DNA from: Streptomyces sp. ADI96-02
GTDB lineage: Bacteria > Actinomycetota > Actinomycetes > Streptomycetales > Streptomycetaceae
Direction of reading: 5' to 3'
Assembly: GCF_003846185.1 (NCBI RefSeq)
Contig: NZ_ML123034.1
Span: 423,788-487,787 of the forward strand
DNA: 64,000 bases
The translations under genes and the position numbers were made by a program. Shown in pieces: positions 1,450-58,506 of the stretch (the stretch's first letter is position 1; the number at the start of each line of letters is the position of its first letter). A model generated the notes under the pieces. It was not told the DNA's origin. It did not search any database and saw nothing but the letters and a program-made list of their open reading frames with translations.

Positions 1450-1654
1450 ACCGGCCCGCCTGCGGCGGCCTTTCACCGGCGGTCCGCCGGGCGCGGGGCG
1501 GAGCGCCGGGCCCGCGCGGCGAGGGGACGCCGGGACATCCGGGGTCCGCCGGACCGATATCCTGATCATGTCGTTCACCACCCCGGCTCCGGCTCCGCAG
1601 AGGGCCGTGGCGCGAGGTGGGCCGGCAGTCGCAACGGGCCACCCTTCGAGATAG

Positions 1655-2923
1655 GTGAAACAGGTGCTGGTAGCTGGTCGGTACCGGTTGATATCCCCCA
1701 TCGGCCGAGGCGGCATGGGCGAGGTGTGGCGCGCGGCCGACGAAGTGCTGGGCCGCGCCGTGGCGGTGAAGCTGCTGCTGGGGGACCAGGCGGACGCCTC
1801 CTCGACCGCCCGGTTCCGGCTGGAGGCGCAGACCGCCGCCCGGCTGAGCCACCCGCACCTGGTGGCCGTGTTCGACTTCGGGGCCTGGGAGGACCGCTTC
1901 TACCTCGTGATGGAGCTGGTCGAGGGGCAGAGCCTCGGCTCGCTGCTCGCCGCCCAGGAGCGGGTCCATCCCGAGCAGGTGGCGCAGATCGCCGGCCAGG
2001 CCGCGGCCGGTCTCACGGCGGCCCACCGCCAGGGCGTCGTCCACCGGGACATCAAGCCGGGCAACCTGATGCTGGACGCGGACGGCTCGGTGAAGATCGG
2101 CGACTTCGGGATCGCACAGTTCGTCGACGACCCGTCGACCGCGCTGACGACGGCCGGCCAGATCGTGGGCACGAGCCTCTACCTGGCTCCCGAACGCGCG
2201 CTGGGGCAGACGGCGGACTCCGCCTCGGACATCTACTCGCTCGGCTGCGTCGTCTACCAACTGCTGCTCGGGCAGCCCCCGTTCAAGTCGGACACGGCCA
2301 CCGCCACGCTGTACCAGCACGTCGACACCCCGCCGGTGCCGCTGCGGCAGCGGGGCGTGGAGATCTCGCCCGCCTTCGACTCCTACCTCCTGGGACTGCT
2401 GGCCAAGACTCCCGAGGAGCGGCCCACCGCGCAGCAGGTGTCGGACTGGTTCCGCACCGACGCCTGGCGGGGCCGCCCCGAGCCCCTGCCGATGCACTCC
2501 CCCGCGCGGCGCTCGGCCGCCGGGCCGGCCGCCGCCCCCGCGCCGTCGGCGCCGGCCGCTCCGGCGGGCCCGATGACGTACCGGCTGCCGCAGCCGACGG
2601 GGCGAAGACGCAGTACCGCGCCCCGGTCCGCTCCGGCCCGCCGCCGCAGCACCCGCGAGGCGATACGCCGCCGTCCCCGGGTGGCGAGCGCCATCGCGGG
2701 CACGGCGACGTTCCTGGCCGCCGTGTATCTGGGGATGATCCTGTTCTCGCCGGACTCCAGCTCGGCGGGCACGCCCGCTCCGGGCCCGTCCGGCACCCCG
2801 GTGCGGGACGCCTCCGTGCCGGGCGGCCAGGGCACGGGCGATCCGTCCGCAGGTCCGCCCGAGCAGGGCGGGGACGTGCGCCGGGGCGAGAGCGAGGACG
2901 CGGAGGACGGGCAGGACGACTGA
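1655..2923 (+). CDS. membrane-anchored serine/threonine protein kinase
   Basis: A 422-aa Hanks-type (PknB-like) kinase starting at GTG 1655. The N-terminal kinase domain (residues about 10-265) has the glycine loop GRGGMGEV, ATP-binding Lys39, catalytic HRD at 130-132 followed by IKPGN, and the metal-binding DFG at 150-152. After an Ala/Pro-rich, basic linker comes one transmembrane segment (about 348-368, SAIAGTATFLAAVYLGMILF) and a short extracytoplasmic tail rich in Pro, Gly, Ser and acidic residues. There is no PASTA repeat or other recognisable sensor domain, so the signal is unknown. The next gene is convergent, so this is probably monocistronic. Confidence 0.95.
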   Translation: MKQVLVAGRYRLISPIGRGGMGEVWRAADEVLGRAVAVKLLLGDQADASSTARFRLEAQTAARLSHPHLVAVFDFGAWEDRFYLVMELVEGQSLGSLLAAQERVHPEQVAQIAGQAAAGLTAAHRQGVVHRDIKPGNLMLDADGSVKIGDFGIAQFVDDPSTALTTAGQIVGTSLYLAPERALGQTADSASDIYSLGCVVYQLLLGQPPFKSDTATATLYQHVDTPPVPLRQRGVEISPAFDSYLLGLLAKTPEERPTAQQVSDWFRTDAWRGRPEPLPMHSPARRSAAGPAAAPAPSAPAAPAGPMTYRLPQPTGRRRSTAPRSAPARRRSTREAIRRRPRVASAIAGTATFLAAVYLGMILFSPDSSSAGTPAPGPSGTPVRDASVPGGQGTGDPSAGPPEQGGDVRRGESEDAEDGQDD

Positions 2924-2960
2924 CGTCCCGCCCGCGCTCCGCGCCCTGTGTTCCGCCGGG

Positions 2961-3953
2961 TCACCAGCGGTGGTGGACCTCCGCGCGGATCGACCGGTCG
3001 TACAGCTCGCGCACCGCGTCCAGCGTGCTCTGCGGCAGCGGCGGCAGCGAGGCCGCGGCGGCGTTGGCACGGGCCTGCTCCACCGACCGGGCGCCGGGGA
3101 TGACGCTGGTCACGCCGGGCTGCTGGATGATCCAGCGCAGCGCGGTCTGCGCGGGGGTGGCGCCCTCGGGGGCCAGCTCGGCGAACTCGGCGGCGGCGGC
3201 GACCCCGGTCGCGTAGTCGATGCCGGAGAACGTCTCGCCCTGGTCGAACGCCTCGCCGTGGCGGTTGTAGGAGCGGTGGTCCTCGGGGCCGAAGACGGTG
3301 TCCTTGGTGTACTTGCCGGAGAGCAGTCCGGAGGCCAGCGGGACGCGGGCGATGATCCCGACGCCCGCCGCGACCGCCGCCGTAAGGACCTCGTCCAGCG
3401 GCTTGAGGCGGAAGGGGTTGAGGATGATCTGCACGCTCGCCACTCCGGGGCGGGCGATCGCGGCCAGGGCCTCCGCGCAGGTCTCGACGCTCACCGCGTA
3501 GGCGGCGATGCGCTGTTCGGCGACCAGGGTGTCCAGGGCGTCGTAGACGGCGTCGGAGGAGTAGACGCTGGTGGGCGGGCAGTGCAGTTGGACGAGGTCG
3601 AGCGTGTCGGTGCCGAGGTTGGCCCGCGAACGGTCGTTCCAGGTCCGGAAGTTGTCCAGGACGTAGTTCTCCGGCACCTGGTCGGCGCGGCGGCCCATCT
3701 TGGTGGCGACGAAGACGTTCGCGTCGGGGCGGTTCTTGAGGTAGCGGCCGATGAGCTGTTCGCTGCGGCCGTCGCCGTAGACGTCGGCGGTGTCGAAGAA
3801 GGTGACGCCGGAGTCGACGGCCGCGTCGAGGACGCCGAAGGCGTCCGCCTCCGCGACCTCTCCCCAGTCGCCGCCGATCTGCCAGGTGCCCTGTCCGACG
3901 ACCGAGACGTCACGGCCGGTCCTGCCGAGTGTGCGCTGTTCCATGAGGATCAT
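2961..3953 (-). CDS. aldo/keto reductase
   Basis: A 330-aa NADPH-dependent oxidoreductase of the AKR superfamily (TIM barrel). The catalytic tetrad is intact: Asp54, Tyr59 (DTADVYG), Lys85 (ATKMG) and His124 (VQLHCP). The cofactor-binding end SVIPGARSVEQARANAAA is near the C terminus. ATG 3953 is preferred because an AAGAAGGGAAAG ribosome binding site lies about 10 nt upstream; ATG 3944 (MEQRTLG) is possible. It is divergent from the LigD-like gene and convergent with the kinase. The physiological substrate is not evident. Confidence 0.93.
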   Translation of the reverse strand: MILMEQRTLGRTGRDVSVVGQGTWQIGGDWGEVAEADAFGVLDAAVDSGVTFFDTADVYGDGRSEQLIGRYLKNRPDANVFVATKMGRRADQVPENYVLDNFRTWNDRSRANLGTDTLDLVQLHCPPTSVYSSDAVYDALDTLVAEQRIAAYAVSVETCAEALAAIARPGVASVQIILNPFRLKPLDEVLTAAVAAGVGIIARVPLASGLLSGKYTKDTVFGPEDHRSYNRHGEAFDQGETFSGIDYATGVAAAAEFAELAPEGATPAQTALRWIIQQPGVTSVIPGARSVEQARANAAAASLPPLPQSTLDAVRELYDRSIRAEVHHRW

Positions 3954-4187
3954 ATTATTCCGCTTTCCCTTCTTGATCTCAGGCAGCGCCGCACGTGCGT
4001 CACCGGCCTGTTCCGACCGGAGCGGGGAACGGACCGCGCCCCGGGCGTATGCGCCCGAACGCGACCGGGCCCGCCGTGCGGTCCGCTCCGGGCGGCGGCA
4101 GAGTGGAGAGAAGGACCGCGACACGGCTGTGCTGCGACGTTGGCGGCGCCGCCCGTGCGTGGACGGCGCGGGCGGAGGGAGTACGGC

Positions 4188-4796
4188 GTGAGGATCCACC
4201 GAGTGGCGCGACCCGGGGCCGACGGCCCTGCCCGACCTGCCGCCGACGGGGCCCCGCGGCCCCGTTTCGTCGTGCAGATCCACGACGCGCGACGCATGCA
4301 CTTCGACTTCCGCCTGGAGGTCGACGGCGTGCTCAAGTCCTGGGCGGTGCCCCGGGGGCCGTCGGAGAACCCGAGCGACCGGCGGCTGGCCGTCGAGACG
4401 GAGGACCATCCGCTGGCGTACCGCGAGTTCGAGGGTGTCATCCCGCAGGGCGAGTCGGGCAGCGGCACGGTCATCGTCTGGGATCAGGGGACCTACCGCC
4501 CGCTCGGCCACGACCGGCAGGGCGACCGCGTCTCCTTCGCCGACTCGCTGGCGCTCGGACACGCCACGTTCTGGCTGTACGGGACGAAGCTGCACGGCGA
4601 GTACGCCCTCATCCGCTTCCGGGTGGGCGACGAGCCGGACAGCGGCGGCCGGGAGGCGTGGCTGCTGATCAAGGCCAACGACCGCCTCGCCGTACGCGAC
4701 CGGCCCGGCTCCCCCGACCCCTACCACGCGCGGTCCGCGCGCACCGGGCGGACGCTGCACCAGGTCGCCTCGGCGGCCCGGGGGCGCAGGGGGTGA
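4188..4796 (+). CDS. stand-alone LigD-type 3'-phosphoesterase (DNA polymerase ligase N-terminal domain)
   Basis: A 202-aa protein consisting only of the phosphoesterase (PE) domain that forms one module of bacterial NHEJ ligase LigD. PE domains trim 3'-ribonucleotides and 3'-phosphates at broken ends. Metal and catalytic residues are visible: His32 in QIHDARRMHFDFRLE, then His38, Asp40 and Arg42, and His74 in TEDHPL, followed by the FEGVIPQGESGSGTVIVWD block. GTG 4188 is chosen because GGCGGAGGGA lies just upstream and no earlier start fits. No ligase or polymerase domain and no ku gene is adjacent, so it is either a helper of NHEJ components elsewhere or an independent end-cleaning enzyme. 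Confidence 0.9.
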   Translation: MRIHRVARPGADGPARPAADGAPRPRFVVQIHDARRMHFDFRLEVDGVLKSWAVPRGPSENPSDRRLAVETEDHPLAYREFEGVIPQGESGSGTVIVWDQGTYRPLGHDRQGDRVSFADSLALGHATFWLYGTKLHGEYALIRFRVGDEPDSGGREAWLLIKANDRLAVRDRPGSPDPYHARSARTGRTLHQVASAARGRRG

Positions 4797-4810
4797 TCCA
4801 CGCGGGCCCG

Positions 4811-4844
4811 GGGGCTCACGCGGGCGCGGGGCTCACGCGGGCGC
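4811..4844. repeat. perfect 17-bp tandem direct repeat (2 copies)
   Basis: The unit GGGGCTCACGCGGGCGC occurs twice head to tail (4811-4827, 4828-4844). It lies between the LigD-like gene and the start-less reductase remnant. It may be a duplication scar from the event that removed the reductase 5' end; no function is apparent. Confidence 0.8.
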
Positions 4845-4917
4845 GGGCGAAGGTCCGCACGCCGCCCGCGGCGCTACCCGAACGACCCCGCGCTCCGGCG
4901 AGGACGCCCAGGCGATC

Positions 4918-5472
4918 GTGGTGGGAGCGGGGCCGGCGGGCTCGTCCGCCGCCTACCACCTGGCCCGGGCCGGAGTGGACGTACTGCTGCTGGAGAAGTC
5001 GCGCTTCCCCCGCGAGAAGGTGTGCGGCGACGGCCTCACGCCGCGCGCGGTCCACCAGCTCATCCGGATGGGCGTCGACATCCGCGCGCCGGGCTGGACC
5101 CGCTCGCGCGGGATGCGCTGGGTGGCCGGCGAGCACCGGGTGCACATCGACTGGCCCGCGCTGGGCCGTTTTCCGGACTTCGGCCTCACCCGCACCCGGC
5201 ACGACTTCGACGACATCCTGGCCCGGCACGCCGAGGCCGCCGGGGCGCGGCTGCACACCGGGTGGAAGGCCGAGGGGCCGCTGACGGACCGGTCGGGCCG
5301 GACCGTGGACGTCACCGCGTCCGCCGGTTCCGCCGAACCGGTCGCCTTCCGCGCGCCGGTCGTCATCGCCGCCGACGGGGCCTCGGCACGGCTCGCCCTC
5401 CCCATGGGCCTGGAGCGTGACCCGAAGCGGCAGATCGCCACCGCCGCCCGCCGCTACTACCTGCCGGGGTGA
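4918..5472 (+). pseudogene. truncated geranylgeranyl reductase family FAD oxidoreductase
   Basis: Only about 184 codons remain of a flavoprotein family that is normally about 400-430 aa (GGR/digeranylgeranylglycerophospholipid reductase type). The N-terminal FAD-binding motif (VVGAGPAGSSAAYHLARAG), the EKSRFPREKVCGDGL block and the RTRHDFDDILARHA region are intact. The reading frame stops at TGA 5472 immediately after the RRYYLPG segment, which in full-length members is followed by the whole catalytic/lipid-binding half. The 5' end is also abnormal: codons upstream (GEDAQAI) look like genuine N-terminal sequence, but no start codon exists before GTG 4918 back to a stop at 4795. Not expected to be a functional reductase. 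Confidence 0.82.
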
Positions 5473-48246: not shown

Positions 48247-48584
48247 GAGTGCCTCCCGTACAGGGCTCCGCGTGGAGAGCCCACTGCCATACGTGTGCGA
48301 CCGGCACCGGCCCCAGGAGGGGTTCAGCTCGTCCTGTCTCCGGCAGCCGGTCGCGGTCGCTATTGCACAGGAGAGGGTGTTGCGCGCCGGTGAGCGGATT
48401 TCCTTACCTTTTCGCAAGGTGCGGTCGTTCGGCCGCGGGCGGCTCCGCCCCGGCGACTCCGCGCGAGCCGCCGGGCTCCGGGCGGAGGGAGGGCGCGGTC
48501 CCGGTGGTGTACGCGCTCCTCCCGCGCTCCGCCGTTACGGGGCCCGCCCGTGTCCGCGCCGCCGCGCGCGCGGTTGGAGAGGGC
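48247..48584. other. 338-bp divergent promoter region
   Basis: No gene seen. It separates the leftward efflux operon from the rightward ribonuclease gene. ACCTT-N5-AAGGT (48406-48420) is a small inverted repeat in a less GC-rich patch and may be a regulator site or promoter element. Confidence 0.5.
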
Positions 48585-49055
48585 ATGACGATTCCGCGCA
48601 CCCTGCGCTCCGTGGCCGCCGCGGCCCTGTTCCTGGCGGCGCTCGCCACTCCAGCAGCTTCCTCCGCCGCCTCCACTCAGCCGACGCCCGCCTTCCCGTA
48701 CGCCTCGGTTCGGCCCGTCGACATCATCGACCCTCCGCTGCCCGTAGAGGAGTTCCCCGGGCACGTCGAGGAAGCCTGCGCCATCTGGAAGGAGCTGGAA
48801 TGGCCGCAGGCCACAAGGCCGACCGACTACCCGGTGGTGAACACGCCTCTGGTCATCCGGGGAAGCAACGTCTACCGCAACCGCTCGGGCGACCTGCCCC
48901 GGGAGGGCCGCTACCGGGAGTACGACGTCAACCCCCGCAACCCCGGTGAGCACCGCGACGCCGAACGGCTCGTGCGCGACCCCGGCACCCGGACCGTCTG
49001 GTACACGGGCGACCACTACGACAACTTCCAGGAGATCTCCTCCGGCTGCGAGTGA
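48585..49055 (+). CDS. secreted guanyl-specific ribonuclease (RNase Sa/N1/T1 family)
   Basis: A 156-aa exported RNase. Signal peptide about 1-30 (SVAAAALFLAALATPAASS), a 35-residue proline-rich segment, then the catalytic domain. It follows RNase Sa closely: NVYRNRSGDLPREGRYREYDV carries the catalytic Glu (REYDV) and a substrate-site Asn/Arg; the Arg pair is in HRDAERLVRD; the catalytic His is in WYTGDHYDNF. Two Cys (EEACAIW and the C-terminal SSGCE) can form the family disulfide. ATG 48585 has TTGGAGAGGGC. No barstar-like inhibitor gene is next to it. Confidence 0.92.
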   Translation: MTIPRTLRSVAAAALFLAALATPAASSAASTQPTPAFPYASVRPVDIIDPPLPVEEFPGHVEEACAIWKELEWPQATRPTDYPVVNTPLVIRGSNVYRNRSGDLPREGRYREYDVNPRNPGEHRDAERLVRDPGTRTVWYTGDHYDNFQEISSGCE

Positions 49056-49079: not shown

Positions 49080-49919
49080 TCAGCCGGTCCGCGGTTCCGG
49101 GGACGTGTCCTCGTTCCCGCGGGACGGGGAGACGAATCGCACCGGCGCCTGGAAGCGGGCCTTGCGGGCGGCGCGGCGGAAGACCGTCAGTACCGCGGGG
49201 CCGGCGAGGGTGACGCAGACGAAGTTGGTGACGGCGCGGCCGGTGTCCCAGCCGAGGGAGGTGGCCAGGTCGAAGGCGAGGTACCGCTGGAACTGCTCGG
49301 TGAACGGGAGGCCGGGAAGGTAGGCGATGGAGCTGTTCGGGTCGAGGGAGAACGGCCAGAAGGAGAGGTTCAGGAGAAAGCCGAAAAGGTAACCGGAGAG
49401 CGATCCGTACACCGCGAGCAGGGCGACTTCCCCGCGTCCCGTGGCTTTCGGCAGAAGGCCGGCGAGCATGCCGACGAAGGCGCAGCCGAACATCTGGTAA
49501 GGCATCCAGGGACCGACGCCGCCCGTGATGAGGGCCGAGGCGAAGAGCGAGGTACAGCCCAGGGTGAAGCCGAATCCGGGACCGTAGACCCGGCCCGCGA
49601 GCACGAGGATGAAGAACACCGTCTCGATCCCGGCCGTACCGGCTCCGAGGGGCCGGATGGCGGCGTTGACGGCGGAGAGGACGCCCAGCATCGCCAGGGC
49701 CTTGGAGTTGATGCCGCCTTCGGCGATCTCCGATATCACCACGCAGAGCACGACGACGAGCAGGACGCCGAAGATCAGCGGCGGCGCGTAGTTCGAGCCG
49801 AATGTGCCGGGTGCCACGAGGAACGGCCAGAAGAAGGCGACGACGCCGAGGAAGGCCGCCAGGGCGATGACGATTCCGGCGCGGGCGCGGATGCGGATGG
49901 CGGCGGTGTACGTGCTCAC
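49080..49919 (-). CDS. ECF transporter S component (predicted cobalamin-specific)
   Basis: A 279-aa membrane protein with about six helices, including FGVLLVVVLCVVISEIAEGG, ALAMLGVLSAVNAAIRPLG, IETVFFILVLAGRVYGPGFG and a long C-terminal pair. The arrangement matches the substrate-binding S components of energy-coupling factor importers. GTG 49919 overlaps the ATPase stop by 4 bp. The operon is preceded by a cobalamin riboswitch and transcobalamin-like proteins, so vitamin B12 or cobinamide is the likely ligand; the protein itself does not resemble the classical BtuM or CbrT signatures enough to prove it. Confidence 0.83.
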   Translation of the reverse strand: MSTYTAAIRIRARAGIVIALAAFLGVVAFFWPFLVAPGTFGSNYAPPLIFGVLLVVVLCVVISEIAEGGINSKALAMLGVLSAVNAAIRPLGAGTAGIETVFFILVLAGRVYGPGFGFTLGCTSLFASALITGGVGPWMPYQMFGCAFVGMLAGLLPKATGRGEVALLAVYGSLSGYLFGFLLNLSFWPFSLDPNSSIAYLPGLPFTEQFQRYLAFDLATSLGWDTGRAVTNFVCVTLAGPAVLTVFRRAARKARFQAPVRFVSPSRGNEDTSPEPRTG

Positions 49920-51592
49920 GAGACCGGGTCCGTTCCGGCGTTGGCGTCGGCGTCGGCGTCGGCGTCGAGGACCGCTGCCAGTTGGTCCACCGTGAGGAAG
50001 GGCAGCGGGGCCAGGATCTTCGCGGTCTGGGGGGCGAAGACGGGCGAGGCGACGATGACCTCGGCGGTGGGTCCGTCGGCGACGACGTCCCCCTCCGCCA
50101 TGACGACGACGCGGTCGGCGGCGCGGGCGACGAACTCCACGTCGTGGGTGGAGATGACGACGGACCGGCCCTCGGCGGCGAGGCCGTCCACGATGTCGAT
50201 CAGCCGCCCCTTGGCCTGGTAGTCGAGGCCGCGCGTGGGTTCGTCGAGGAGGAGCACCCGTGGAGCCGCGGCGAGCTGGATCGCCAGGACGAGGGCCAGT
50301 TTCTGGCCCTCGGACAGGTCGCGCGGGTGAGTGGTGCCGGGGATGCCGGGCGCCAGCCGGTCCAGCAGGGTACGGGCCGGAACCCGGTCGGCCACGGCAC
50401 CGGACTCGGCGTCGGCCTGGTCGAGTTCCTGCTTGACGCTCTCCAGGTAGAGCAGGTCGGTGGGGGTCTGCGGCACCAGGCCGACGAGCTGCCGGGCCTC
50501 GGCCGCCGGGACCTTCCGGGGATCGGGCGCCCGCGGATCGCCGGGCTCCCCGACAAAGACGGATCCGGCCTTGCGGGGCCCGGAGCCCTGCAGGGCCCAG
50601 AGCAGGGAGGACTTGCCGGACCCGTTGCGGCCCATCAGGGCCGTGATCTCCCCGCCGCGCAGATCGAGGTCGACCTCGCGGACGGCCGGTACACCCTGGT
50701 ACGTCACGGTGATGCCGCGGGCGGTGAGGAGGACGGGCCGGCCGGTGCCGGGGGCCGGCCGGGCCGGTGGCGGGGTCACGCCGCCCAACCGGGCGCGGAG
50801 CGGGGCCGCCGCCCGTCGGGCGTCCCGGATGGAGAGCGGCAGCGGCGACCAGGCGGCGGCGCGGGCGAGTTCGACGATGGGCGGCGCGATGGACGACGTG
50901 CGGAAGACCTCCGCGGCCGGTCCGGAGACCACCCGCCCGTCGCCGGGGAGGTGGATGACGCGGTCGGCGTACTGGACGACGCGTTCCAGCCGGTGTTCGG
51001 CGAGCAGCACGGTGACGCCGAGGTCGTGGACGAGCCGGGTGACGGCGGCCAGCACCTCCTCGGCGGCGGTCGGATCGAGTGCGGAGGTGGGCTCGTCCAG
51101 GACGAGGACGCGGGGGTGGGCGGTGAGGACGGAGCCGATGGCGACGCGCTGCTGCTGTCCACCGGAGAGCTCGTGCAGCGCGCGGTGCCGCAGATCGGCC
51201 AGGCCGAGCAGGTCGAGCGTCTCCTCGACCCGCTTGCGCATGGTGGAGGGCGCGACCGCCAGTTGCTCCATGGCGTAGGCGAGTTCTTCCTCGACGGTGT
51301 CGGTGACGAAGCCGTCGAGGGGGTCCTGGCCGACGACGCCGACGACGTCGGCCAGCTCGCGCGGCGGGTGGTCGGCGGTGTCCCGGCCGTCCACGGTCAC
51401 GCGCCCGTACAGGGTGCCGCCGGTGAAGTGCGGTACGAGCCCGTTGACGGAGCCCAGGAGTGTGGACTTGCCGACGCCGGTGTGGCCGACGACGAGGCAG
51501 AGTTCGCCCTCCTCCACGGTGAGGTCCACGTCGCGCAGGACGGGTTCGGCCGTGTCCTCGTACTGGATGGTGACCTGGTCGAAGGTGATCAC
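49916..51592 (-). CDS. ECF transporter double ATPase (EcfA-A' fusion)
   Basis: A 558-aa fusion of two ABC ATPases. First half: Walker A GHTGVGKST at 36-44, signature LSGGQQQR, Walker B VLVLDEPTSALD, H-loop AEHRLER. Second half (from about 300): Walker A GRNGSGKSS, Q-loop PQTPTDLLYL, a degenerate signature LSEGQKLAL, Walker B VLLLDEPTRGLD, H-loop THDVEFVA. The C terminus has an Asp-Ala repeat DADADADANA from GACGCC-type codon repeats. Fused EcfA subunits are frequent in actinobacteria. GTG 51592 overlaps the T-component stop. Confidence 0.94.
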   Translation of the reverse strand: MITFDQVTIQYEDTAEPVLRDVDLTVEEGELCLVVGHTGVGKSTLLGSVNGLVPHFTGGTLYGRVTVDGRDTADHPPRELADVVGVVGQDPLDGFVTDTVEEELAYAMEQLAVAPSTMRKRVEETLDLLGLADLRHRALHELSGGQQQRVAIGSVLTAHPRVLVLDEPTSALDPTAAEEVLAAVTRLVHDLGVTVLLAEHRLERVVQYADRVIHLPGDGRVVSGPAAEVFRTSSIAPPIVELARAAAWSPLPLSIRDARRAAAPLRARLGGVTPPPARPAPGTGRPVLLTARGITVTYQGVPAVREVDLDLRGGEITALMGRNGSGKSSLLWALQGSGPRKAGSVFVGEPGDPRAPDPRKVPAAEARQLVGLVPQTPTDLLYLESVKQELDQADAESGAVADRVPARTLLDRLAPGIPGTTHPRDLSEGQKLALVLAIQLAAAPRVLLLDEPTRGLDYQAKGRLIDIVDGLAAEGRSVVISTHDVEFVARAADRVVVMAEGDVVADGPTAEVIVASPVFAPQTAKILAPLPFLTVDQLAAVLDADADADANAGTDPVS

Positions 51593-52773
51593 GTGGGTTC
51601 CTCGGTGCGCTGCGCGGGGACGGCCGGACGGATGGGCCTGCTCGGGGGCGGGGACAGGAACCCCGCGGCCCCGGCGAGGAGGATCGCGGCGGCCGGCACC
51701 GGCGGAAGGGTGGGCCAGCTCAACGGGTAGATGGAGGGGTTGAGTTCGGCCGCGTCGAATCCGGCGTTGCTGAAGAGGAGCACCGCGGAGAGGACCCCGC
51801 ATCCGGCGACGGCCCACTCGGCGGCCCGCCAGGGGTCGGGCCGGTAGGTGGTACGGGTGACGCGGCGCCCGCCGAGACGGAGCCCGGCCACGCACAGCAG
51901 ACCGCCGGCGGCGAGCGCGGGGAAGCCGAGCAGCGGGGGCGCGGTGGCGTCGAGGAGCCCGTACGCGCCCGCGCACAGGCCGCACATGCCGAGCAGCATG
52001 AGGGCGCCGGTCGCGCGGCGGGAGCGGCGGGTGGCCGTTCCCGCGCGCCCGTAGCCGCGGGAGTCCATGGCGGCGGCCAGCCGCAGGGAGCGTTCCAGGG
52101 CGTCCTCCAGGACGGGGACGACGATGCCGCGCAGGGCGCGCAGTCCCTTGGACCGTCCGGCGCGCAGCCGTCGTGCCCGGTGTACGCGCTGGACGCTCTG
52201 GACCAGTTGGGGCGCCACGCTGATGGAGACGGTGACGGCCACGCCGAGTTCGTACAGGGCGCCAGGCAGCACGCGCAGGGCCCGTTTGGGGTTGGCGAGG
52301 GTGTTGGCGGCGCCGATGCAGCAGAGCATGCAGGCGAGCCGGAGCCCGTCCGTGGCGGCGGAGAGCAGTGCCTCCAGGGAGACCGGTCCGCCGATCTGGA
52401 TGCCCGCGTACCAGTCGGGGGTGGGGATGTGCGGGAGGGAGAAGAGGAAGTGGTCGCGGGGGGTGATGCCGGTGGCGAAGACCGCGCGGAAGACCACCCG
52501 GATCGCCACGACGGTGAGCGCGAGGTAGAGGTAGTAGCTGAAGCCGCGCGCCCAGGGAGCCTCGGTGCGGCGCGTGGTGATGACGTAACCGAGGACGGCG
52601 AGGACGAGGAACAGCAGCAGCGGGTTGTTGGTGCGGCTGACCGCGGTGGCGAGGGCCAGGGCCCAGACCCACCAGGCAACGGGGTGCAGGGTGCGGGGCA
52701 GCCGGCGGCCGTCCGCGGCCGGCGCGGGGCCGGGCGCGGACGGCGGTGCCGTCGTCGGGGCGGAGCGGGGCAC
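51589..52773 (-). CDS. ECF transporter T component (EcfT/CbiQ-like)
   Basis: A 394-aa membrane coupling protein: helices near the N terminus (about 33-75), the long cytosolic coupling region with Ala-Arg motifs (ARRLRAGRSKGLRALRG and RLAAAMDSRGYGRAG, about residues 200-245), then a C-terminal membrane domain of several helices (about 260-380), which is longer than in typical EcfT (about 265 aa). It starts 5 bp after the SCO2322-like gene stop and overlaps the ATPase by 4 bp. Confidence 0.92.
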   Translation of the reverse strand: MPRSAPTTAPPSAPGPAPAADGRRLPRTLHPVAWWVWALALATAVSRTNNPLLLFLVLAVLGYVITTRRTEAPWARGFSYYLYLALTVVAIRVVFRAVFATGITPRDHFLFSLPHIPTPDWYAGIQIGGPVSLEALLSAATDGLRLACMLCCIGAANTLANPKRALRVLPGALYELGVAVTVSISVAPQLVQSVQRVHRARRLRAGRSKGLRALRGIVVPVLEDALERSLRLAAAMDSRGYGRAGTATRRSRRATGALMLLGMCGLCAGAYGLLDATAPPLLGFPALAAGGLLCVAGLRLGGRRVTRTTYRPDPWRAAEWAVAGCGVLSAVLLFSNAGFDAAELNPSIYPLSWPTLPPVPAAAILLAGAAGFLSPPPSRPIRPAVPAQRTEEPT

Positions 52774-52777
52774 GCGG

Positions 52778-53728
52778 CTACTCCGTACGACGGCGGCGCT
52801 TGGCGGCGAACACGGCGGCGGCCCCGATCAGCAGGCCGAGGACTCCCGTGATGACGGCGGGCGCGTACGTGCCGGTGTCGTGGGCGGCGTCGGCGGCGGG
52901 TGCCGCGTCGACCACCTGGGGTCCGGAGGCGGTCGCGGCCGGAGCGCGGGTCGTGGTGGAGGGCGCGGGAGTTGCGCCGGTCGACGACGGGCTCGGCGAT
53001 GAACTCCGTGAAACGGTGGGGCTCTTGGAGGTCGAGGTGCTGGTCGGCGTGCCGGGCGCGGGCGGCGGCGGTTCGGTGTCCGGTGCGTCCTCAGGGGCCG
53101 GGCCGGTGTCGACGCCCGGCGGGAGCGCGGGCGCGGTCCGGGTGTCCTTCGGAGCGGGTCTGCCACCGCCCGTGGGCCGGGTGTTGTGGGCGCGCAGTTG
53201 GTCGGGGGTGATGGTCGGACGGCCCCGGGCGCCCTCGACGTCGGTGCCGCCGAAGATCCACAGGTCGACGCTGCCCGGCTTCGGCTTGTAGAGCATCGCG
53301 CCGAGCTGGCTGTACTCCCACGTGTTCCGGCCCGGGTCGGCGTGCCAGTACGACCAGTACGCGGAGGCCGGCGGGGTGAGGACGCAGTCGTCCTGCTGCG
53401 GCGTCGGGTACTGCTTGCCGCCCCGGTGGCCGCTGTAGCCGATCCGGCAGATGAACGCGGGACCGTCGTGGCCCGTGCCGGTGGTGGTCCAGCCGCCCTG
53501 GTTGAGCAGTTCGTAGCCGGTGGTGGGCGTCGTGCCGCACGAGCGGTAGACGGGTCCGCCCCAGCGGCTGAAGTCGACCGCGAGGACCACCCCGGAGGAG
53601 GTGGTGCACCGTCCCATCGGCTGCGGGTCGGCCTCGGCCGGGGCCGCGGTGGCGGCGAAGGCCGCCACTGTCATCGCCAGCGCGGCCGTCGTACGGGTGA
53701 GGGCGCGGGCGAGTCGGCGGGCTCTCAT
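52778..53728 (-). CDS. SCO2322-family exported protein with DUF4430-like domain and C-terminal anchor
   Basis: A 316-aa protein. Signal peptide about 1-33; a Cys-containing beta domain about 40-175 (RCTTSSGVVLAVDFSRWGGP, TTPTTGYELLNQGGW, FICRIGYSG, YWSYWHADPGRNTWEYS, then KPGSVDLWIFGGTD); a Pro/Thr/Ser-rich stalk (about 180-280); and a TM helix with RRRR tail. The beta domain is about two-thirds identical by eye to the N-terminal domain of the upstream 952-aa protein and shows the YW..G....Y....G pattern of DUF4430, the beta domain of transcobalamin-type B12 binders. ATG 53728 overlaps the preceding stop. Likely a membrane-tethered B12-binding or handover module. Confidence 0.82.
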   Translation of the reverse strand: MRARRLARALTRTTAALAMTVAAFAATAAPAEADPQPMGRCTTSSGVVLAVDFSRWGGPVYRSCGTTPTTGYELLNQGGWTTTGTGHDGPAFICRIGYSGHRGGKQYPTPQQDDCVLTPPASAYWSYWHADPGRNTWEYSQLGAMLYKPKPGSVDLWIFGGTDVEGARGRPTITPDQLRAHNTRPTGGGRPAPKDTRTAPALPPGVDTGPAPEDAPDTEPPPPAPGTPTSTSTSKSPTVSRSSSPSPSSTGATPAPSTTTRAPAATASGPQVVDAAPAADAAHDTGTYAPAVITGVLGLLIGAAAVFAAKRRRRTE

Positions 53729-56583
53729 GCCTGGCCTCCGGTGGTGTCGCGGCGTCGGCGGGCCGTGCGGATCGCGCCCCAGCCGCCGAGCACGAGCGCC
53801 GCCGCCGCGGCGGCCAGGGCGGCGACCCGGGCTCCGGTGGCGGCGAGGCTGCCGCCCGTACCGCCGGCCGGGCCCCCGGGGGAACCGGTGCCGCCTCTGT
53901 CCTCACCTGTGGTGATGATGGTGGGGGCGGAGGGAGGTCCGCCCGGCTTCGCGGAAGGGCTCGGGATCGGCTCGGGCGAAGTGCCGCTCAGATCGCGGGT
54001 CAGCACGCCGAAGGAGATTCCGGTGGCCCCGCCGACGGCCTGGGCGGAGGCGCGGACGTCGGATCCGGGTTGGCCGCCCTTGACCACGTTGAAGCCGCCG
54101 TCCTTGTTCTGCTGGGAGGCCAGGAACTTCCGGGCCTTCGCGAGGTGGCCCCTGTATTTCGCGGAGTCCAGCGACAGGCCCTGGATCGCGAGGGCCGCGG
54201 AGTTGACGGAGTTGCCGGAGGCCCCGGGGAATCCGCCGTCGGGGAGCTGCTGGGCGGCCAGCCAGGCGAGGGCCTTGTCCACGGCCGCCTGCGAGGCGGG
54301 ATCGGGGAGGAGGTCCACGGTCATCGCGGCCATGGCGGTGGAGTCGACGTCGGGATCGCTCTTCTCGCCGGTCAGGCTGGGCCAGGATCCGGTCGAGGGG
54401 TCCTGGAGGCTCTTGAGGTAGGTGATCGGTTCGGTCGCGGCTGCGCTCTCGCCGGCCCGGATCTGGGCGATGACGCCGAGGGACTGGGAGAAGACGGAGT
54501 TCGCGTAGGCGTAGTTGCCCTTGGCGGCGCACTTCCTGGGGTCGGCCGGGGTCGCCGCCGGGCAGACGCCCCTGGCGAGTGCGGCGATCAGGTCCTGTCC
54601 GCCGAAGTCGCGGGGGTCGCGGCCGACGGCCTCGGCGAGCACCGCCGCCTTGCCGATGAAGCCGCCGCCCGCGTGCTTGGTCCCGATCCGGGTCCACGCG
54701 TCGAGGTCGCGGCCCGTACCGTCCTCGCCGCCCTCGTCGAGGAAGTCGACGATGTTGCGCAGGGTGGCGTTGTCGTGGCCGGTGGCGGCGAGGGCGTAGG
54801 CGCCGTCGATGGTCATGCCGAAGTCCGCGAAGCGCGGGCTGGACTCGTAGTAGCGGCCTTGGGCGAGGCGGGAGGCGAGGTAGGCCGAACCCTTCTTGAG
54901 ATCCGGTCCTTCACCGGCCGGGGGCCCGGTCGGCGGGGTCGTCGTGGGAGGGTCGGTGGGCGGTGTGGTCGGTGGCTCGGGCTCCTCGGTGGTCAGCAGC
55001 ACCAGGTCGCTCTTCGCGCCCGCCATGACGGCCGTGGTGGTGGCGTACAGCAGCGGGTCCAAGGTGCCCTCCTCGAAGGCGAAGCCGCCACCGGGGAGTT
55101 GCTGCCGGGAGAGCCAGGAGACACCCGCGTCGGCGTGGCCCCGGTCGCCCAGGGCGCGCAGGGTCTGGGCGACCCAGCCGGTGGCGTGGGCGCTGCCCGG
55201 TGTGCTGTAGGAGGCGGCGGGCCAGGCGCCCGTCGGGAACTGGGACTTCTTGAGCGAGGACCGGGCCCTGGTCACCACGGAGGTGTGGCCGCCGGCCTGC
55301 TGGAGGGCGAGGGCGACGAGCGCGGTGGTTCCCGGCTCGCTCTCGCACACCTGGCCGTCGAGGAGCAGGAAGCTGGGGAACCCGCCGTCGTCGCACTGGA
55401 GTTGGGCCAGGCGTTGGACGGAGTACGCCGGCGGCGTCACGCCGCCGCTCAACAGGGCGATGACGGCCAGGGCCTGGCCCTCGGTCTGCCCGGTCGTACG
55501 GAAGTCTCCCTCGGTCGCGCAGCCGGGGACGGGCTGCGGTGCGTCGGAGCCGCTGCGGCAGACGTTCGCCAGGAGGTCGCCGAGCAGGTCGTGTCCGCCG
55601 AAGGAACGGGGATCGCCGTCCGTGGCCTCGGCGAGGAGCGCGAGGCGGGCGGCGGCGGTGGCGTCCGGCGCCTCGTCCTTCCCGGACCGGTAGGCGTACG
55701 CCTCGGTGTGTTCGGGTCGGGCGAGGAAGCGGGCGATCCGGCGGGCGGTGGGGTCCTCCCGGTCGAACGAGGCCAGTGCGTAGGCGACTTCGGTGGTGGC
55801 GGGGTAGTTAGGCTCGGTGGCGCCTTCGTCGACGACGCGCTGACCGTTCGTCAGCCGATCGGCGAGCCAGCGGGTCGCGGCGGGCAGATCGACCGACCCG
55901 GCGGGCACGTTCGGTGCGGCCGGGTCGCTCGGGTCCGGCGGGTCGCCGCCCTCCGCGCGGACGTCGTCGGGCGTGAACGTGGGCCTGCCCTTGGTGCCGC
56001 CGATGTCCGTACCGCCGTAGACCCAGGCGTCCACGTCACCGGGCTTGAGGGTGCGCGACACCGCGCCCAGTGGACTGTAGGTCCACTTCCGCCGGCCGGG
56101 CGAGGCGGTCCAGTACGACCAGTAGGCGGTGGCCCGCGGGGTGAGGACGCAGTCCTCCTCGGCCGGAGTGGGGTACTTCCCGCCCTCGGCGAAGCCGCCG
56201 CTGCCTATGCGGCAGATGAAGGCGGGACCGTCGTGGCCCGTTCCCTCGGTGGTGAACCCGCCGGTGTGCAGCAGTTCGTAGCCGGTCGTGGGGGTGGTGT
56301 CGCAGCCGCGTACCACCGGGCCGCCCCAGGGTCCGAAGTCCACGGCGACGATGGCGCCCGTCGTGCGTGTGCACCGCTCGACCGGGTCGGCCTCGACCGG
56401 CGGGGCTGCTGTGAGGAGCACCGCTGCCGCGCCGAGTGTCACCAAGGAGGCGGTCAGGAGGGACAGCAGCCGCCGTCCTGCTCCCGCCCCCCGTCTCGCC
56501 CGCTGTTCGGTCCCCACCGCGGCCCTCGTCTCTGCCGGGCGGCTGCGTGCGTGGCGATACGCCCCGCACGGCTGGGAGGCCAT
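53725..56583 (-). CDS. cell-wall-anchored transcobalamin-like protein with two alpha/alpha-toroid domains
   Basis: A 952-aa exported protein. Basic signal region about 23-65; DUF4430-like beta domain about 68-205; first alpha/alpha toroid (prenyltransferase/squalene-cyclase-type repeats such as QCDDGGFPSF and QQLPGGGFAF) about 228-515; a Pro/Thr linker; second toroid about 540-850 (LQDPSTGSWPS, QQLPDGGFPG, QQNKDGGFNV); then a Pro-rich stalk and SLAATG followed by a hydrophobic helix and RRRR, which is a class E sortase LAXTG sorting signal. ATG 56583 has no ribosome binding site; GTG 56517 with GAGGG upstream is a real alternative. A cobalamin riboswitch lies 57 bp upstream. Predicted surface B12 receptor. 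Confidence 0.85.
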   Translation of the reverse strand: MASQPCGAYRHARSRPAETRAAVGTEQRARRGAGAGRRLLSLLTASLVTLGAAAVLLTAAPPVEADPVERCTRTTGAIVAVDFGPWGGPVVRGCDTTPTTGYELLHTGGFTTEGTGHDGPAFICRIGSGGFAEGGKYPTPAEEDCVLTPRATAYWSYWTASPGRRKWTYSPLGAVSRTLKPGDVDAWVYGGTDIGGTKGRPTFTPDDVRAEGGDPPDPSDPAAPNVPAGSVDLPAATRWLADRLTNGQRVVDEGATEPNYPATTEVAYALASFDREDPTARRIARFLARPEHTEAYAYRSGKDEAPDATAAARLALLAEATDGDPRSFGGHDLLGDLLANVCRSGSDAPQPVPGCATEGDFRTTGQTEGQALAVIALLSGGVTPPAYSVQRLAQLQCDDGGFPSFLLLDGQVCESEPGTTALVALALQQAGGHTSVVTRARSSLKKSQFPTGAWPAASYSTPGSAHATGWVAQTLRALGDRGHADAGVSWLSRQQLPGGGFAFEEGTLDPLLYATTTAVMAGAKSDLVLLTTEEPEPPTTPPTDPPTTTPPTGPPAGEGPDLKKGSAYLASRLAQGRYYESSPRFADFGMTIDGAYALAATGHDNATLRNIVDFLDEGGEDGTGRDLDAWTRIGTKHAGGGFIGKAAVLAEAVGRDPRDFGGQDLIAALARGVCPAATPADPRKCAAKGNYAYANSVFSQSLGVIAQIRAGESAAATEPITYLKSLQDPSTGSWPSLTGEKSDPDVDSTAMAAMTVDLLPDPASQAAVDKALAWLAAQQLPDGGFPGASGNSVNSAALAIQGLSLDSAKYRGHLAKARKFLASQQNKDGGFNVVKGGQPGSDVRASAQAVGGATGISFGVLTRDLSGTSPEPIPSPSAKPGGPPSAPTIITTGEDRGGTGSPGGPAGGTGGSLAATGARVAALAAAAAALVLGGWGAIRTARRRRDTTGGQA

Positions 56584-56640
56584 GGGGAAGCGGTGACGAC
56601 CACGCCGTAGTCCGCGACGGCGTTCCTTCGTGCTGAGTGC

Positions 56641-56727
56641 CAGCCCCAGGCATTCCGACTCACCCGGACGAACCGGGCCTACGGTTGCGGGTCAGTGCCG
56701 GAATTCGACCGGCTTCCCCTGGTGCTG
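56641..56727 (-). promoter_or_regulatory. cobalamin riboswitch (compact Cbl-II-like), leftward operon
   Basis: Minus-strand reading contains the core GGGAAGCCGGTCGAATTCCGG, ACTGACCCGCAACCGTAGG, a CCCGG/CCGGG hairpin and the B12 box GAGTCGGAATGCCTGG. P1 is CAGCACCAGG (56727-56718) paired with CCTGGGGCTG (56650-56641), with one mismatch. The element is 87 nt with no P2 or long accessory arm, like the short env8/Cbl-II class. It lies 57 bp before the 952-aa gene start. Confidence 0.9.
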
Positions 56728-56872
56728 ATTGCTTATCAGGCGGAGTGCAACACGGATCCGATCGGGCCGTCAAGATGGTGTTCGTCTCACCCGGGAGTCC
56801 GCGGCGGCGCGCGGCCGGCACCGCCTCCGGACGGCTGGCGGACCCTGGTTCCCTCGGGTAGCGTCCTGGGCT

Positions 56873-56963
56873 GCCACATGGGGGAATCCGGTGAGAGGCC
56901 GGAGCTGACGCGCAGCGGTATGGGGCGGCGGGGGCCGTCTCCGAGCCCGAATGCCCATACGGC
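56873..56963 (+). promoter_or_regulatory. cobalamin riboswitch (compact Cbl-II-like), rightward gene
   Basis: Plus-strand core GGGGAATCCGGTGAGAGGCC, then GGAGCTGACGCGCAGCGGTA and B12 box GAGCCCGAATGCCC. P1 is GCCACATGGG (56873-56882) with CCCATACGGC (56954-56963), a stem with one 2x2 internal loop. A GGCGGC/GCCGTC hairpin forms the third arm. 91 nt; it lies 131 nt before the 470-aa gene start. Confidence 0.92.
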
Positions 56964-57022
56964 GACGCAGTACAGGAAGCCGTACCCCGCGTTCCGGACG
57001 GCGGCTCCCCCGGCCATGCCCG

Positions 57023-57040
57023 GCCGTGCTCGCGCACGGC
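57023..57040 (+). promoter_or_regulatory. hairpin in riboswitch leader, possible expression platform
   Basis: GCCGTGC-TCGC-GCACGGC, perfect 7-bp stem, between the riboswitch and the ribosome binding site of the 470-aa gene. No U-tract; translational control by sequestration is more likely than termination. Confidence 0.5.
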
Positions 57041-57093
57041 GACATCCGGCTTGCACGGGAGCAGCCGGCGTTCGCCGATTCCAGGAGCAGGCC

Positions 57094-58506
57094 ATGTCCC
57101 GTCCTCGCACTTCACGCCGCCTCGCGTTCGCGGTGCCCGCAGCGTTCGGCGCCTTCGCCCTCACCACGCTGCCCGCTTTCGCGACGTCCACCCCGGCGCA
57201 GACAGCCACCTCCAGAACCAACGGCGTCGCCTACCTCAAGTCCCTCCAGGCTGCGGACGGTTCCTATGCGGGGTCCGGGCTGTCCAGCGAGTGGGCGTTC
57301 AGCGCCTTCGCGGCCTCCGGCACCGCCGTCGTCGACGTCGCCCCGGGCGGCGATGCCACCAAGAACGCCCGGAGCGTGTACCGCGACCTGCTGTCCACGG
57401 CGAGTTGGCCGTCCACCTCCCCGGTCGTCACCGACTACGAGCGCGGCACGCTCAACGCCTACGCGGCGGGCATCGACCCGGCGCGCGTCTCGGCGTCGCG
57501 CAACCTGGTCGCGGACATCTACGCGTACTGGCAGACAGCCGAGCCGGGCTACTTCGGCCCGTCCGGGAACTTCAACGGCACCATCTTCGCGACCCTCGCG
57601 CTGAGCGGCGCCAGGACCCAGGCCGGCGGCGCCCGCGTCCCCCAGTCGCTCACCGACGCGCTGGTCGCCCGCATCCGCGCCAACCAGCACAACGACGGCG
57701 GCTGGACGTACCAGAAGGTCGAGGGCAGCCCCACCGGCCTGAACTCTCCGGGCGATGTGGACATGACCGGCGCCGCGATGGCCGCGCTCTGCGTGTCGGG
57801 CGTTCCGCAGACCGACTCGGACGTCGTCCAGGCCAAGAACTTCCTCAAGGGCAAGCTGGTCAACGCCTCCGGCGCCTTCAACTCCCTCTACGGCATCAAC
57901 ACCAGCTCCAACGGCTGGGGCGTCTCCGGCCTCAACGCCTGCGGCATCAACCCGCAGACCGGCGACTTCCTCACCGGTCTCGGCAAGACCCCGATCGACT
58001 TCCTGATCGCCAACCAGTACAACCCGGGCGGCGGCTTCAAGTACAAGCCCGCCGACTCCTCGCCGTCCTCCTACTCCTCGGTCGACGCCCTGCGCGCGGT
58101 GGCCGGCGGCGGCTTCACGGCGACCCCGCCGGTCCCGGTCACCCCCGGGGCCACGCGGTGGGTCGCCCAGCCCTCGTTCACGGCGGGCACCGCGACCGAG
58201 CTCGCGCTGTCCGTCGACGACGGCGCCGGCAACCTCAAGGTGTGCTCGGTGGCCTTCACGCCGACGGGCACGACCACGACCCTGGGCGACGTCCTGAGCG
58301 CCGCGACGAGCGGCGCCACTCCGTCCGGCTGCGTCACGAGCGCGACCCCCGCGTCCGGCACCGGCGCGATCACGGCCGTGGGCGGCAAGGCCAACAGCGA
58401 TGCGAACACGTGGAAGGTCAGCGTCGACGGCTCCTCCTTCGCCGGCGCCCTCCGCGAGAAGGTGATCAACGTGGGCGACACGATCGCCCTGCGCTGGGGG
58501 GCCTGA
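57094..58506 (+). CDS. secreted transcobalamin-like protein (alpha/alpha toroid plus DUF4430-like domain)
   Basis: A 470-aa exported protein without membrane anchor. Signal peptide about 1-32 (AVPAAFGAFALTTLPAFA). Alpha/alpha toroid about 40-350 with repeats (YLKSLQAADGSYAG, NQHNDGGWTYQK, NQYNPGGGFKYKP). C-terminal beta domain about 355-470 (TLGDVLSAATSG, ITAVGGKANSDANTWKVSVD, VINVGDTIALRWGA) with the DUF4430 signature. The order toroid then beta domain is that of human transcobalamin and intrinsic factor. ATG 57094 has AGGAGCAGGCC. A cobalamin riboswitch lies upstream. Predicted free extracellular B12 carrier. Confidence 0.88.
   Translation: MSRPRTSRRLAFAVPAAFGAFALTTLPAFATSTPAQTATSRTNGVAYLKSLQAADGSYAGSGLSSEWAFSAFAASGTAVVDVAPGGDATKNARSVYRDLLSTASWPSTSPVVTDYERGTLNAYAAGIDPARVSASRNLVADIYAYWQTAEPGYFGPSGNFNGTIFATLALSGARTQAGGARVPQSLTDALVARIRANQHNDGGWTYQKVEGSPTGLNSPGDVDMTGAAMAALCVSGVPQTDSDVVQAKNFLKGKLVNASGAFNSLYGINTSSNGWGVSGLNACGINPQTGDFLTGLGKTPIDFLIANQYNPGGGFKYKPADSSPSSYSSVDALRAVAGGGFTATPPVPVTPGATRWVAQPSFTAGTATELALSVDDGAGNLKVCSVAFTPTGTTTTLGDVLSAATSGATPSGCVTSATPASGTGAITAVGGKANSDANTWKVSVDGSSFAGALREKVINVGDTIALRWGA

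Follow-up and report, generated by a model that had tools for sequence, protein, structure and literature searches.

The window analyzed here is a 64,000-nucleotide (nt) stretch of the Streptomyces sp. ADI96-02 genome (NCBI RefSeq assembly GCF_003846185.1, contig NZ_ML123034.1, positions 423,788 to 487,787), and all coordinates below refer to it unless a locus is named. Between positions 49080 and 58506, it contains a leftward operon of five overlapping or abutting genes, which encode a 952-amino-acid (aa) exported protein, a 316-aa exported protein, and the EcfT, fused EcfA, and S component subunits of a predicted energy-coupling factor (ECF) transporter. Divergent from this operon lies the gene for a 470-aa secreted protein, which we refer to as SEC. 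The open reading frame (ORF) coordinates bear out this layout, which an initial annotation of the same DNA had described. Based on the predicted folds and on sequence matches, we consider it likely that the locus encodes a surface scavenging system, in which SEC and probable wall- and membrane-held partners would capture vitamin B12, or else a corrinoid related to it, for import by the ECF transporter.

Three of the joints in the operon are 4-nt overlaps or gaps; the 952-aa gene shares 4 nt with the 316-aa gene, and the S component gene shares 4 nt with the EcfA gene. The start of the EcfA gene near 51607, upstream of which the frame stays open, and the size of its overlap with the EcfT gene are inferred. 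EcfT, the transmembrane subunit (51589..52773, reverse strand), matched PF02361 (CbiQ) with 43.6 bits (cut-off, 25), and the fused EcfA ATPase (49916..51607, reverse strand) matched PF00005 (ABC_tran) in two stretches with 165.2 bits, corresponding to two ATP-binding cassette (ABC) domains. NCBIfam ECF_ATPase models were the top matches of EcfA, yet these remained under their cut-offs. The 279-aa S component (49080..49919, reverse strand), the predicted corrinoid-specific membrane subunit, matched PF12822 (ECF_trnsprt) with 29.6 bits, slightly below the cut-off of 30.7, and 14 of 17 aligned relatives matched the same family at an expect value (E) of ≤0.01. Collectively, these matches, marginal in the case of PF12822, support the ECF module that had been proposed. 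The resemblance of EcfT to CbiQ also speaks for a cobalt importer, in which the riboswitches at the locus (described below) would follow a need for cobalt and the surface proteins would chelate the metal. Cobalt transporters can stand under B12 riboswitches, and CbiM/N/Q/O-like genes adjoin a related operon in another Streptomyces genome (L132; locus and genome numbers are our own). However, a Pfam scan of the operon genes gave no match to CbiM or CbiN, the S component family matches PF12822, and SEC resembles a B12 carrier; we regard a cobalt importer as very unlikely.

Two cobalamin riboswitches lie between the divergent units. The one upstream of SEC (56841..56977, forward strand) matched RF00174 with 37.6 bits, above the gathering threshold of 31.5. 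Upstream of the operon, a riboswitch core (56649..56718, reverse strand) matched with 27.1 bits (E = 9.1e-5 in a 1-kilobase [kb] scan), which is formally below threshold in the window. Thus, the earlier claim that each unit has its own cobalamin riboswitch holds on the SEC side, and on the operon side it rests on a sub-threshold match that is nevertheless conserved: both riboswitches were present in all 19 Streptomyces loci scanned (L089 to L107; L108 was left out). In these relatives, the SEC-side riboswitch scored 27.6 to 41.4 bits and reached the gathering threshold in 17 of 19, and the operon-side riboswitch scored 24.9 to 40.1 bits and reached it in 5 of 19. Of 49 intergenic regions, 46 contained a simple core pattern, which is cruder than the Rfam model, pointing toward SEC, and 33 contained it pointing toward the 952-aa gene. 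The whole genome has seven cobalamin riboswitch matches in 6.99 megabases (Mb), two of which are at this locus.

SEC (57094..58506, forward strand) is predicted to consist of a signal peptide, recognized from the sequence, a toroid, and a C-terminal β domain (residues 360 to 470; 58171..58503, forward strand), and its ATG lies within a longer mechanical ORF that starts at 56695. It would thus share with animal transcobalamin, intrinsic factor, and haptocorrin both secretion and the order of a toroid followed by a C-terminal β domain, a likeness that the initial annotation had proposed. These carriers were also the best fold matches of the SEC model, in which the toroid is of low confidence. 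All 12 Foldseek matches at E ≤ 0.001 were transcobalamin, and rows 1 to 14 from VIA-align were all transcobalamin, intrinsic factor, or haptocorrin. Of 53 relatives of SEC, 30 matched the family DUF4430 at E ≤ 0.1, with 5.9e-4 as the best value, and the SEC of the window itself was not among them; hhalign comparison of SEC with free DUF4430 proteins from three other Streptomyces loci (L131 to L133) gave 31.3% (E = 5e-4, 44 columns).

The 952-aa protein (53725..56583, reverse strand) comprises an N-terminal β domain, two α/α toroids, an LAATG motif, and a membrane helix. Its database form has 930 aa, being 22 codons shorter, and in the numbering of that form the β domain spans residues 45 to 190 (55948..56385), as seen from the strand and helix pattern of the model and from hhalign, toroid 1 spans residues 205 to 505 (55003..55905), and toroid 2 spans residues 533 to 834 (54016..54921), all on the reverse strand. 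Both toroids were well modeled (predicted local distance difference test [pLDDT] of the model, 86.1), and hhalign of toroid 2 against toroid 1 gave 100%. The N-terminal domain was modeled as two strands, a helix, and five strands, an order that would be given by a β-grasp fold with a hairpin inserted after the helix. Against the NCBIfam model for SCO2321, the protein scored 138.3 bits and did not reach the cut-off of 300, indicating that it is a relative of this family rather than a member. Two Actinacidiphila homologs, at 1231 to 1243 aa, are about 300 aa longer (L071, 2376 to 6107; L060, 2250 to 5945).

The C terminus of the 952-aa protein has the pattern of a class E sortase substrate, namely, an LAXTG motif, a hydrophobic stretch, and a basic tail. 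LAXTG is the SrtE signal in Streptomyces coelicolor (PMC5148588). In the LAATG signal (53833..53847, reverse strand), L891, A892, T894, and G895 were invariant in 24 of 24 aligned relatives, as was LAXTG, and the model has a C-terminal helix (residues 895 to 925). A broader alignment of 89 rows left T894 and G895 invariant and L891 conserved in at least 90%, with A892 below that, so LAXTG does not occur in every row; a Micromonospora homolog has MPVTG at this position. We therefore predict that the 952-aa protein is anchored to the wall by a class E sortase, and the two modeled toroids together with this sorting signal agree with its earlier description as a wall-anchored relative of SEC.

The 316-aa protein (52778..53728, reverse strand) contains one β-rich domain, a C-terminal membrane helix, and a basic tail; the hydrophobic C terminus was read from the sequence and the family alignment. 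No Pfam family matched it at E ≤ 0.1. With 24.5 bits against NF040672 (SCO2322_fam), it did not reach the cut-off of 85 and is a distant relative of that family rather than a member, and profile comparison with SCO2322 gave 95.5% over 47 columns. Its domain and the N-terminal domain of the 952-aa protein matched each other at 100% in hhalign.

These features suggest how surface scavenging might proceed. When intracellular B12 is low, both riboswitches would permit expression of the two transcripts. SEC would close its toroid and β domain around a corrinoid in the medium, and the wall-anchored 952-aa protein would receive, concentrate, or store it. The membrane-held 316-aa domain could then pass the corrinoid to the S component; a domain of this type neighbors the S gene at all 12 loci picked across the class and at 57 of 62 loci from named genomes. 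Finally, ATP hydrolysis by the fused EcfA, together with EcfT, would drive import. The contacts among the exported proteins, and the order in which they would act, we infer from gene content, riboswitch matches, and predicted folds.

A number of results from the models, the family searches, and the distribution of the genes weigh against surface scavenging of B12. The SEC model had a pLDDT of 50.6 overall, with residues 1 to 163 and other stretches below 50, and the alignment used for it was too uniform (76 to 88% identity to the query). The Foldseek TM-scores of this model, taken over the whole chain, were low (0.17 to 0.25), and full-length superpositions had a root mean square deviation of about 14. 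PF01122, the family of the animal carriers, matched none of 53 SEC relatives at E ≤ 0.1, and thus SEC is not filed as a member; a sequence-only search of solved structures with SEC likewise matched no B12 carrier. When the profile of the S component (17 rows) was searched against solved structures at E ≤ 10, no S component was found, CbrT included. Because no solved S component is detectably related in sequence to that of the operon, the assignment of B12 as its substrate rests on the riboswitches and the gene neighborhood.

The toroids of the 952-aa protein gave terpene cyclases and glycosidases (GH76) as their best fold matches, and no B12 carrier appeared among the best 50 rows listed, a result that excludes nothing. 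Pfam also names squalene cyclase domains in the 952-aa protein. Together, these assignments favor an explanation in which the toroid proteins are secreted enzymes of the terpenoid or glycan type and their B12-riboswitch neighborhood is incidental. Against this, the exported proteins carry sorting or membrane tails and are encoded together with an ECF module in an operon that recurs under B12 riboswitches, and the SEC model matches transcobalamin; an enzymatic role for the toroids appears to us extremely improbable. For the β domains of the operon, sequence searches did not support the initial annotation, which had called the 316-aa protein DUF4430-like. In the 316-aa family, 22 aligned members were searched at E ≤ 10 and none matched DUF4430, nor did any of seven further relatives at E ≤ 1, and hhalign of these β domains against the SEC and DUF4430 domains gave only 0.1 to 1.4%. 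We therefore rejected a DUF4430 assignment for both domains at the sequence level.

Among the matches listed, close relatives came from Streptomyces and one Kitasatospora record, and more distant ones came from other actinomycetes. Searching named genomes for the S component gave 112 relatives, and 80 of the loci were retained; the SEC and 952-aa genes were divergent in 49 of the 80, with Kitasatospora, Actinacidiphila, and Micromonospora included. Profiles applied to the 62 named loci that extended at least 9 kb upstream of the S gene detected EcfA (61 loci), EcfT (59), a toroid (58), the small (316-type) domain (57), and SEC (51). The unfavorable cases are the five loci in which the small domain was not found (L032, L035, L041, L088, and L077) and the four in which no toroid was found (L032, L035, L041, and L088), and the idea that a small domain lies beside every S gene is thereby ruled out. 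In L032 (Streptomyces sp. DvalAA-43), the S gene, at 87% identity, is apparently an orphan, as EcfA, EcfT, toroid, and small domain were not found in the 20.8-kb locus.

The sparse occurrence of SEC is a further unfavorable point. A search of 148 genomes of the class with the single SEC protein recovered the protein from its own genome only (1/148). The notion that SEC is confined to this genome was set aside, and low sensitivity or patchiness invoked instead, after a profile search that found SEC in 21 of 199 Streptomyces genomes. An S component relative of some kind was present in 188 of the 199, and this difference, together with the separate riboswitch and transcript direction of SEC, favors a role for SEC outside the import relay, in which it would deny B12 to neighbors or store it while the ECF transporter imports free B12 alone. 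However, a close S component (at least 75% identity) was found in 24 of the 199 genomes, covering all 21 with SEC, so SEC never occurred without one in this sample, and the two genes lay within 9 kb of each other in 20 of the 21. We consider a SEC that is separate from import unlikely. In the remaining genome (G181; L092 and L114), some 2.6 Mb separates SEC and both riboswitches from the close S component, an arrangement unique among the 21 genomes, and a cobalamin riboswitch of 85.6 bits lies beyond the 3′ end of SEC in L092.

Operons related to the one at this locus are far more widespread. A protein of the SCO2321 family (NF053823) was over the cut-off in 189 of 199 Streptomyces genomes, and in the loci read it was part of a paralogous operon that likewise encodes a toroid protein, an SCO2322-type domain, EcfT, EcfA, and an S component. 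The toroid protein of this paralogous operon differs in having about 455 aa and no fused β domain, and tblastn for SEC at four such loci (L127 to L130) gave no match. All 12 of the other genomes scanned have a B12-clan riboswitch upstream of this operon (10 RF00174 and 2 AdoCbl-II); these 12 loci are the best scoring of 198 genomes with a match and are not a random sample. The paralogous operon of the ADI96-02 genome itself (L127, G000:C1:1756000-1772000) had no B12 riboswitch at E ≤ 2, which detracts from B12 as the cargo. This one copy had suggested a different ligand for the SCO2321-type paralog, an idea that was dropped in view of the 12 other copies that have the switch.

Across the Actinomycete class, the S component family was found at E ≤ 1e-20 in 129 of 246 genomes, with 58 of 103 genera represented. 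From these genomes we picked 12 loci, in which an SCO2322/316-type small domain and EcfA were each present in 12, EcfT in 11, and a toroid in 7. A riboswitch of the B12 clan was found at the operon start in 10 of the 12; four were above gathering, and the weakest two scored 24.2 bits (E of about 0.04). The two loci in which the scan found none, L142 and L143, count on the unfavorable side. L134 and L135, from single-contig genomes of 1.3 to 1.4 Mb, contain just the riboswitch, the small domain, and the T, A, and S subunits. In this sample, the class-wide core looks like a small domain with T, A, and S, to which a toroid is added in 7 of 12 loci; a second toroid and a free transcobalamin-like protein characterize the version at the present locus. 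A second cobalamin riboswitch lies after the S gene in L139 (7173 to 7313, reverse strand; 37.3 bits) and in L144 (7137 to 7250, reverse strand; 41.1 bits), and the one in L144 precedes a further small β-domain gene.

A third Streptomyces clade (L131 to L133) has a free secreted DUF4430 protein and a toroid after the S gene; the two DUF4430 proteins tested scored 35.4 and 35.7 bits against a cut-off of 23.8. Beside the ECF/toroid operon of this clade in L132 lie genes that read as CbiM, CbiN, CbiQ, and CbiO and a gene for a secreted DUF4430 protein (1569 to 5149).

A more specific form of surface scavenging, which we advance tentatively as a possibility, is a three-tier relay. A free secreted transcobalamin would hand its cargo to the double toroid at the wall, and that in turn to a membrane β domain that would act as a fifth subunit and load the S component. 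The tiers would have been added stepwise to the class-wide core, producing a carrier-and-receptor route parallel to that of animals.

The B12 metabolism of the host bears on what such a system would be used for. Four of the five other riboswitches in the genome precede genes for MetE, CobD/CbiB, CobN, and a periplasmic-binding-type lipoprotein. Because CobN and CobD/CbiB are linked to riboswitches, the host probably also makes B12, a point on the unfavorable side for B12 capture. The lipoprotein gene beside one riboswitch matched Peripla_BP_2 (PF01497) with 106.7 bits (L004, G000:C1:2323063-2326179) and is possibly part of a BtuF-type B12 ABC importer in the same genome. With its own B12 synthesis likely and another uptake system possible, the host would use the capture system at this locus for salvage. 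In a host that likely makes its own B12, salvage of another corrinoid or a precursor, such as cobinamide or a nonstandard cobamide, would add something, and the same machinery would serve for it. The Lactobacillus ECF-CbrT transporter accepts both cobalamin and cobinamide (PMC5997447), and cobalamin riboswitches are, according to the title of PMC9600662, broadly sensitive to corrinoid cofactors. The sequences do not discriminate between these ligands, and we give a cargo other than B12 a minor but appreciable chance.

The general idea of such a system is not new. Burroughs et al. (PMC1796856) described in 2007 bacterial proteins of a transcobalamin clade that combine β-grasp and toroid domains, are secreted or wall anchored, and occur with CbiO/CbiQ-like genes, and they predicted B12 scavenging and possible surface complexes for them. 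The present locus has in common with those systems the exported or wall-anchored toroid and β-grasp proteins, the CbiQ/CbiO-type module, and the predicted scavenging; some of those operons likewise have two extracellular paralogs. The hosts given there are low-GC Gram-positive bacteria, planctomycetes, and, less often, euryarchaea, and the word Streptomyces is absent from that text. Apparently beyond what it describes, the present locus has the riboswitch pair, the double toroid, the LAXTG signal, the SCO2322-type domain, and the S component family. In addition, the hosts in that account usually lack B12 synthesis, whereas the host here probably has it. The initial annotation knew of no experimental description of such a relay in actinomycetes. 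A search of the open-access literature, outside which most subscription papers lie, turned up no recognized description of this actinomycete system; the novelty is nonetheless narrower than had been stated, given the 2007 prediction (PMC1796856).

Other known systems share single elements with the locus. In contrast to the animal carriers, the 53 SEC relatives have no PF01122 match, and uptake is predicted to occur through an ECF transporter rather than by receptor endocytosis. ECF-CbrT of Lactobacillus delbrueckii is a characterized cobalamin importer of the ECF type; eight S components, CbrT among them, are predicted to use a single ECF module in common, whereas here the module is encoded in the operon of the S component (PMC5997447). 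No sequence relation between the S component of this locus and solved ones, such as CbrT, was detectable. A table entry for Lacticaseibacillus lists an "Additional lipoprotein component of putative cobalamin ECF transporter" (PMC9963975), which would likewise be an exported aid to a cobalamin ECF transporter, although the passage names no domain and no toroid.

If surface scavenging is correct, Actinomycetes, including Streptomyces, possess an animal-like form of B12 capture, in which a free carrier works with partners at the surface and a dedicated importer, and the bacterial transcobalamin-type prediction of 2007 becomes testable in genetically tractable bacteria. How cargo passes from exported proteins to an ECF transporter is a question that the class-wide S component family opens to study, with a natural series in the versions that have or lack a toroid or a free carrier.

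Next to the locus, a gene for a barnase-type secreted ribonuclease (48360 to 49055, forward strand; PF00545, 46.5 bits) is convergent with the S component gene.

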